64,000 bases of DNA from an uncultured Pelagibacteraceae bacterium (lineage in GTDB: Bacteria > Pseudomonadota > Alphaproteobacteria > Pelagibacterales > Pelagibacteraceae), in NCBI GenBank assembly GCA_902634455.1, contig CACPKQ010000001.1:124001-188000 (forward strand), given 5' to 3'. Position 1 is the first letter of the stretch. Every line of letters starts with the position of its first letter. Both the position numbers and the translations under genes were made by a program. Under the pieces are notes generated by a model. It ran no database searches. It saw only the letters and a list, made by a program, of their open reading frames with translations, and was not told the DNA's origin. Below, piece after piece: positions 58,242 through 58,817 of the stretch.

Positions 58242-58266
58242 CTTGTGGGGAAAATATCCCCACAAG
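58242..58266. terminator. Terminator-like hairpin between convergent permease and hsp20
   Basis: CTTGTGGGGA and TCCCCACAAG form a 10-bp GC-rich stem with a 5-base loop in the 51-base gap between convergent genes. Position argues for shared termination, although the T-runs beyond it are broken by other bases on both strands. Confidence 0.7.
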
Positions 58267-58279
58267 CAAGGTTTAAAAT

Positions 58280-58726
58280 TTATTTAATTTCAATAAGTTT
58301 TTTCTTCTTATATTCTGGTATAATTCTTTCACAAGCTATTGTTAAAAGACCATCTTTTAATTCTGCACCACCTACTTTTACATCATCTGCAATTGTAAAT
58401 GTTCTAGCAAATTGTCTTTGTGAAATACCTTTGTGAATAATTTCACCATCTTCATTTTTATTTTCAGATTTATTAACTTGTTTTGTTCTTACAGTTAATA
58501 AATTGTCTTCAAACTCAACTTCCACATCATTTTTGTTAAAACCAGCCAAAGCAACTTCGATAGAGTATTTATTTTTTCCAGTTTTTCTTATGTTGTATGG
58601 TGGATAGTTTGATTGCATACTCAAAGCTCCATTTCCCAACATATTTTCAAATTGGTCAAACATATCGTCAAAACCAATTGAAAAAGGTTTTAGTGAGTTA
58701 AATATAGATAGATCCTTACTTGTCAT
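58280..58726 (-). CDS. ibpA: Small heat-shock protein (Hsp20/IbpA)
   Basis: ATP-independent holdase that binds unfolding proteins. It is 148 aa: a short N-terminal region (SLKPFSIGFDDMFDQFENML), the alpha-crystallin domain (YNIRKTGKNKYSIEVALAGFNKNDVEVEFEDNLLTV to GLLTIACERI), with a C-terminal PE extension RIIPEYKKKKLIEI. It is typical of class A alphaproteobacterial sHsps. The leader appears to contain both a sigma-32-type promoter and a ROSE-like thermometer, so control is likely at transcription and translation. Confidence 0.95.
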   Translation of the reverse strand: MTSKDLSIFNSLKPFSIGFDDMFDQFENMLGNGALSMQSNYPPYNIRKTGKNKYSIEVALAGFNKNDVEVEFEDNLLTVRTKQVNKSENKNEDGEIIHKGISQRQFARTFTIADDVKVGGAELKDGLLTIACERIIPEYKKKKLIEIK

Positions 58727-58732
58727 AATTGT

Positions 58733-58750
58733 CCTCCTTTTTTAGCAAGG
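58733..58750 (-). ncRNA. ROSE-like RNA thermometer hairpin covering the hsp20 ribosome site
   Basis: On the minus strand CCUUGCU-AAAAA-AGGAGG folds on itself: C-G, C-G, U-A, U-G, an unpaired G, C-G, U-A. The UUGCU against AGGA with a bulged G is the defining feature of ROSE elements, which hide the Shine-Dalgarno site until heat opens the helix. The AUG follows six bases after the GGAGG. A second possible stem, UAGG/CCUA, lies upstream in the same leader. Leader length from the predicted start is about 55-60 bases. Confidence 0.75.
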
Positions 58751-58789
58751 TTATTTTTTATAAGCCCCATTAGGCGACCTACATTTTTT

Positions 58790-58817
58790 ATATGGTTATT
58801 ATTTTTATGTTTTCAAG
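58790..58817 (-). promoter_or_regulatory. Heat-shock (sigma-32/RpoH) type promoter for hsp20
   Basis: Minus strand: CTTGAAA followed 15 bases later by CCATAT. It fits both the enterobacterial CTTGAA-N14-CCCCATNT pattern (the last six positions of the -10) and the alphaproteobacterial CTTG-N18 spacing. It lies at the expected distance upstream of the thermometer. Confidence 0.6.

Follow-up and report, generated by a model that had tools for sequence, protein, structure and literature searches.

The 64,000-nucleotide stretch of DNA analysed here (the window) comes from an uncultured bacterium of SAR11 (Pelagibacteraceae) and carries on its minus strand an hsp20 gene (58280..58726) encoding a 148-amino-acid protein of the HSP20/alpha-crystallin family (63 bits against Pfam PF00011, cut-off 20.8). 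This small heat-shock gene is present as a single copy in its genome, is 86-95% identical to the hsp20 genes of named Pelagibacteraceae single cells, and is the gene presumably regulated by the element described below. An earlier examination of the letters alone (the sequence-only reading) had taken the DNA for that of a very streamlined, apparently marine genome. Read along the minus strand, the upstream region is composed of CTTGAAA (58817-58811), a 15-nt spacer, CCATAT (58795-58790), AUGUAGGUCGCCUAAUGGGGCUUAUAAAAAAUAACCUUGCUAAAAAAGGAGGACAAUU and the AUG start codon (58726). We consider it very probable that this region constitutes a heat-shock-sigma promoter and, behind it, a ROSE-type RNA thermometer that is short and made of two hairpins. 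ROSE is the class whose hallmark is a U(U/C)GCU sequence paired to the Shine-Dalgarno (SD) site and whose two-hairpin form has been experimentally proven for Pseudomonas ibpA (PMC3669281).

The inferred 5' leader (58727..58784, minus strand) is about 58 nt long and can fold into two hairpins. Hairpin 1 (58759..58783, minus strand; UGUAGGUC-G-CC UAAU GGGGCUUAUA), which the sequence-only reading had overlooked, carries a bulged G58775 and is predicted to be heat-stable with a melting temperature (Tm) of about 76 °C. Hairpin 2 (58733..58750, minus strand), the presumed thermosensor, pairs CCUUGCU with the SD sequence AGGAGG (58733..58738, minus strand) through C58750-G58733, C58749-G58734, U58748-A58735, U58747-G58736, C58745-G58737 and U58744-A58738 and leaves G58746 bulged, exactly the succession of U-A, U-G, bulged G, C-G and U-A burying the SD that had been described from the letters alone. 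The same anti-SD arm (58744-58750) has a second possible partner in codons 3-5 of the gene (AGU AAG G, 58714..58720, minus strand), indicated by the lack of synonymous variation in codons 2-4, by duplex energy and by folding competition. Taken singly, the leader is unremarkable: its folding is not significantly better than that of shuffled sequences (z = -1.42), and the pattern TTGCT-N3-11-AGGA occurs 7 times in the window for 6.5 expected. Because this count does not exceed chance it was not used as evidence, and the case made here is comparative. A short upstream open reading frame, with its start in the loop of hairpin 1 and its end at the start codon of hsp20, was also considered and rejected, as in relatives such as L005 it is cut short by a stop and several loops have no AUG.

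We compared 122 hsp20 leaders from the family of the window genome (family 1), which cover five genera, with another 28 that belong to a sister family of the same order (f2). All 121 complete family-1 leaders displayed CUYGCU followed by (A/U)GGAG, so that U(U/C)GCU and either AGGAG or UGGAG were found in every readable relative, and UCGCU was present in 27 of the 28 f2 leaders, the remaining one being cut by a contig end. In an alignment of 71 leaders, which was fitted to the structural model, 94.4% of the cells were paired as compared to 88.2% in shuffles and 47-67% when the partners were slid, and 62 cells were changed on both sides, the corresponding figure being 18.1 for shuffles and no more than 19 for the slid controls. 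Of five measures of structure, four were higher than in every shuffle and the fifth was higher than in 499 of 500. Covariation was strong in hairpin 1, where seven of the nine modelled pairs were changed on both sides with 97.6% of the cells paired; a plain MAFFT alignment folded with RNAalifold also recovered hairpin 1 with six doubly changed pairs. For hairpin 2, the five core pairs, which form an imperfect pairing with the SD around one bulged G, were retained in 70-71 of the 71 aligned leaders, one of them being either U-G or C-G, while the outermost pair was C-G in 21, A-U in 5 and unpaired or mismatched in 43 of the sequences counted. The sequence-only reading had named a loss of the CCUUGCU/AGGAGG pairing in relatives as the outcome that would speak against it; the motif instead proved invariant across the five genera, with mild compensation at the outermost pair.

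A covariance model (R1) was built from 57 leaders and a second one (R2) from phage leaders only. R1 recovered the window leader at 58724-58787 with 70.3 bits and R2 did so at the same place with 32.3 bits (E 2.5e-7). In 19 family-1 genomes R1 gave one strong match per genome, always the hsp20 leader (57-83 bits), and reached at most 26 bits elsewhere in 40 genomes. The ROSE class also carries one or more hairpins further upstream, and we found one (hairpin 1) in family 1 and two in family f2. The f2 leaders (L125-L150) have three hairpins, the last being an invariant UUAAUC-G-CU/AG-GAUUAA; among 20 of these sequences the UCGCU/AGGA hairpin was invariant, the two further hairpins displayed covariation, and by eye each of the three seems to carry a single bulged G. 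Family f2 appears to possess a distinct, longer ROSE-like form.

The promoter is conserved as well. Promoters recognised by RpoH (sigma-32) have a CTTGAA -35 box and a CCCCATnT-like -10 box separated by about 13-17 nt, and the hsp20 promoter fits this consensus in both boxes and in spacing. CTTGAAA-15-CCATAT is kept in 118 of 120 relatives, in all of which TTGA is invariant within the -35 element (58811..58817, minus strand), CCATAT being the consensus for the -10 element (58790..58795, minus strand) and the spacer measuring 15 nt in 106 of the 118. The window genome encodes RpoH (G000:C7, 355 bits, cut-off 323), and another heat-shock gene, groES, is preceded in this genome and in its relatives by promoters of the same type (CTTGAAA and CTATAT, similarly spaced). 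The heat-shock promoter had already been noticed in the sequence-only reading, together with its suitable distance, and is borne out by these comparisons. The double heat control which that reading went on to propose is well supported as a design by the conserved promoter, the groES promoters, the encoded RpoH and the leader; as a measurement it is not.

Relatives of the element were then followed outward, into phage records (L196-L199 and L232-L245) and viral contigs (L200-L222 and L246-L405). A scan of the viral contigs for the exact SAR11 sequence pattern gave no match, because the phage hairpins differ in sequence from those of SAR11, and the leaders were instead found by way of the protein, a search of phage records having detected hsp20 in 507 of them. 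R1 matched the hsp20 leaders of the first four phages examined, Pelagibacter phages HTVC008M, Mosig and HTVC103P and Methylophilales phage Melnitz-3 (23.7-43.7 bits), and, at E values up to 1, the hsp20 leader in 13 of 14 further phages (HTVC115P, twelve cyanophages including syn9, P-SSM2 and P-RSM4, and Pseudomonas phage Paride). UYGCU preceded the SD in 42 of 47 distinct phage hsp20 leaders, belonging to pelagiphages, cyanophages and a methylophage; of the remaining starts with an SD in these loci, 224 in all, 2 had it. With redundant sequences counted the element was found in 179 of 194 viral leaders. RNAalifold found both hairpins unprompted in the phage set, with hairpin 1 pairs occurring in up to four pair types; 58 double changes were counted against 19.1 in shuffles, and covariation exceeded all shuffles on four of five measures. 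The hsp20 leader was the best match of R2 in 17 of 18 whole phage genomes, and R1 and R2, built without each other's sequences, recover each other's leaders.

In 38 of the 47 phage leaders (4.3 expected) a T4-type late box, TAAATA or TATAAT, lies 50-88 nt upstream of the start codon. Since phages usually exchange the heat-shock promoter for this late box, the RNA element would be a translation-control module independent of the promoter. Two departures from the core were seen among the viral sequences. In L318 and L320, which lack UYGCU but still pair, ACGCU stands with AGGAGGU (ACGCU/AGGU), a compensating change which restores pairing below the bulged G. In one viral clade (L215-L222, e.g. L215:941-1003) ACUGUCU replaces UYGCU before the SD and hairpin 1 is kept in most members; this clade may have a core of variant sequence, or its element may have decayed. 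Judged by sequence, the ROSE-like element is not peculiar to the window genome, as it precedes nearly every SAR11 hsp20 gene examined and most marine-phage hsp20 genes.

The sequence-only reading had named the Rfam ROSE models as a check. No Rfam family reached its gathering score in the window, and of the ROSE models only ROSE_3 (RF02523) came near, below threshold and on the hsp20 leaders of other SAR11 genomes. Its best match in three whole SAR11 genomes was the hsp20 leader (19.5-26.4 bits), it matched the L115 leader end to end with 23.0 bits, and on phage leaders it scored 34.1 and 23.7 bits. As a positive control, the Salmonella ibpA leader obtained 95.2 bits with ROSE_2 and 21.3 bits with ROSE_3, indicating that about 20 bits is the score of a true ROSE element from another subfamily. 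The control sequence, L406 (AGRM01000003.1), is a contig of the Salmonella chromosome that bears ibpA and ibpB and lay inside the phage collection, and it was used solely for this purpose. ROSE (RF00435) and ROSE_2 (RF01832) did not reach their gathering scores and matched none of the SAR11 or phage leaders searched; when 58 genomes of the order were searched, ROSE (RF00435) matched none of them, nor did it match any control genome in that search. Other Rfam matches, among them RsaOG, tmRNA_permuted and AaHKsRNA82, were set aside as weak chance matches. A wider ROSE_3 search of the class yielded four sub-threshold matches in 142 genomes. Two sub-threshold ROSE_3 matches outside SAR11 are worth recording: L163 (G242:C9:2091-2160; 32.8 bits), in another alphaproteobacterium, lies directly upstream of a ClpB-like gene and is missed by R1 and R2, and L166 (G194:C68:4162-4229; 25.9 bits), in a non-SAR11 alphaproteobacterium, lies upstream of hsp20 with AACUCGCU before AGGAG.

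An RpoH-type promoter followed by a ROSE-like leader is the best-supported reading of these data. Under heat stress, RpoH would produce more hsp20 mRNA. In cool water hairpin 2 would hide the ribosome-binding site, and on warming its weak U-G pair and bulged G would let it open while hairpin 1 stays folded, the behaviour reported for the Pseudomonas two-hairpin element (PMC3669281). Hsp20 would thus be made in quantity when both controls agree, and only then. Folding predictions attribute to the window hairpin 2 a free energy at 37 °C (dG37) of -1.3 kcal/mol and a Tm of about 47 °C, which become -5.1 kcal/mol and about 70 °C when the bulged G is removed. The ROSE_3 consensus hairpin is stronger, and a lower set point would suit sea water.

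Sequence comparison establishes the promoter, the two bulged-G hairpins, the SD-occluding pairing and their conservation; that the leader works as a thermometer we infer from its membership of the ROSE class, and its melting is a folding prediction. The transcript start was placed from the promoter position. Several points weigh against this interpretation. Hairpin 2 is nearly invariant, and for this reason its own covariation is slight. The commoner Pelagibacter version of hairpin 2, in which the outermost pair is an A.G mismatch and which most relatives carry, has a predicted Tm near 20 °C. Nearest-neighbour folding, in energy models that treat the ROSE core poorly, gives a modest rise in SD accessibility, from 0.58 to 0.80 between 10 and 40 °C in one geometry and from 0.20 to 0.67 between 4 and 42 °C in a second; when the hsp20 rise is ranked together with those of 12 other window genes it is the second largest of the 13 and not exceptional. 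Finally, the ROSE_3 gathering cut-off of 43 bits was not reached by any SAR11 leader (19.5-26.4 bits) or by the best phage leader (34.1 bits), and ROSE_3 had no match to the window leader itself.

In single-sequence folding the best structure at 37 °C is the pairing of the anti-SD arm with codons 3-5, and this led to the idea of a switch rather than a zipper, in which the CUUGCU arm would swap from the SD (cold, off) to codons 3-4, AGU AAG (warm, on), making the coding start part of the sensor. When the window leader is folded at 4 °C, hairpin 2 has a value of 0.45 and the codon pairing 0.02; at 42 °C the figures are 0.03 and 0.61. Among 54 leaders the codon pairing is likelier than hairpin 2 in 17 at 10 °C and in 36 at 40 °C. 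In 48 diverged genes codons 2-4 (ACA AGU AAG) are synonymously fixed, whereas later codons vary, even though AGU and AAG account there for 18% of serine and 26% of lysine codons; the arm-codon duplex is worth -6.4 kcal/mol as compared to -2.0 after synonymous recoding, with a median of 3% of recodings equalling the native sequence. These values nevertheless hinge on the length of coding sequence included, since when slightly more of it is folded, the codon pairing is favoured at all temperatures. The pairing is found in genera g1, g7 and g8. It has shrunk to 5 base pairs in g5, genus g6 has lost it and family f2 does not have it; it displays no covariation because both partners are invariant, and efficiency of initiation, among other things, might equally account for the constraint on the codons. 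The synonymously invariant codons 3-4, complementary to the anti-SD arm, suggest a two-state switch in Pelagibacter, which we regard as possible but less likely than not. Within the thermometer reading, the arm released by hairpin 2 may, less certainly than the preceding steps, be captured by codons 3-4 and sharpen the response. A slightly more speculative proposal is that ocean bacteria and their viruses share an hsp20 thermometer module, the phage copy standing behind its own late promoter so that chaperone output would track water temperature, and the Pelagibacter copy having in addition the codon 3-4 two-state switch on warming.

It is unlikely that the leader serves mainly as a site through which Hsp20 represses its own translation, with temperature acting by titrating Hsp20 onto aggregates. 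Such self-repression operates in E. coli, where IbpA acts via the ROSE-bearing ibpA leader and depends on Arg93 together with an aromatic residue at position 34 (PMC10474464). The SAR11 protein and three phage Hsp20s that were aligned retain both. Arg93 is, however, common in alpha- and gamma-proteobacterial IbpAs and hence not specific, binding of Hsp20 to the leader is putative, and in E. coli self-repression works together with the thermometer, not in its place; the retention of both residues means that it may act alongside the thermometer here too. That the conserved leader merely stabilises the mRNA or sets basal translation with no temperature response would accommodate the stable hairpin 1, which starts near the presumed 5' end and covaries best, as well as the unremarkable single-sequence folding, but is highly improbable, as it leaves unexplained the invariant non-SD arm CUYGCU with its bulged G, the confinement of the element to hsp20 and the match to a proven thermometer class.

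Downstream of hsp20, an inverted repeat CTTGTGGGGA...TCCCCACAAG (58242-58266) lies between the converging hsp20 and permease genes, is kept in relatives and is probably a two-way terminator. No ClpB was detected at the family cut-off in 15 genomes (the window genome, G000, and 14 relatives), which gave just weak AAA+ matches; SAR11 may depend on Hsp20 without this disaggregase.

The element is a real one of the ROSE type, unusual in its host range, which comprises SAR11 and many marine phages. Priority for the SAR11 hsp20 thermometer is uncertain, since Stav et al. 2019 (PMC6429828) mention, for the SAR11 strain HIMB5, a 'possible RNA thermometer' that is not specified further and could be this one; the main text of Meyer et al. 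2009 (PMC2704228), on structured RNAs of Pelagibacter, has no hsp20 element. For phages, we found no literature report of an hsp20 thermometer; just three papers contain both 'cyanophage' and 'RNA thermometer', each term once, and the papers examined on cyanophage small heat-shock proteins (sHsps) do not mention a thermometer. The ROSE-type element on many marine-phage hsp20 genes is thus apparently unreported. Few cells in the sea are as abundant as SAR11 bacteria, whose regulators are few, and a thermometer on their single hsp20 gene would link sea temperature to protein protection in a testable manner. The phage finding is the more surprising part and makes RNA-based temperature sensing by phages during infection directly testable. 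At their cut-offs, the present Rfam models detect no member of the clade, a gap that the alignments from this work would mend.

Among known systems, the element resembles the ROSE_3 consensus (RF02523) in having two hairpins with one bulged base in each at the same place, and differs from it by a weaker hairpin 2 (dG37 -1.3 versus -7.8 kcal/mol). We assume that the short Pseudomonas ibpA thermometer (PMC3669281) and ROSE_3 are the same family; where Pseudomonas is reported to have an upper flanking G-C pair, SAR11 has a loop rich in A, and the possible pairing with codons 3-4 in Pelagibacter sets it apart from both. With ROSE_2, from enterobacterial ibpA, it shares the UCGCU/AGGA hairpin, the bulged G and the occluded SD of an sHsp gene, the upstream hairpin being different in ROSE_2. 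The rhizobial hspA element, ROSE (RF00435), has by its published description the same SD-occluding core in a longer leader of three to four hairpins, and the three-hairpin leaders of SAR11 family f2 are nearer to it in outline. ROSE-G (PMC12857270) has a related anti-SD motif with a bulged G, but this motif is CUGCU with opposed bulged Gs and lies upstream of ABC-transporter genes, whereas in SAR11 it is UUGCU with a single bulge.
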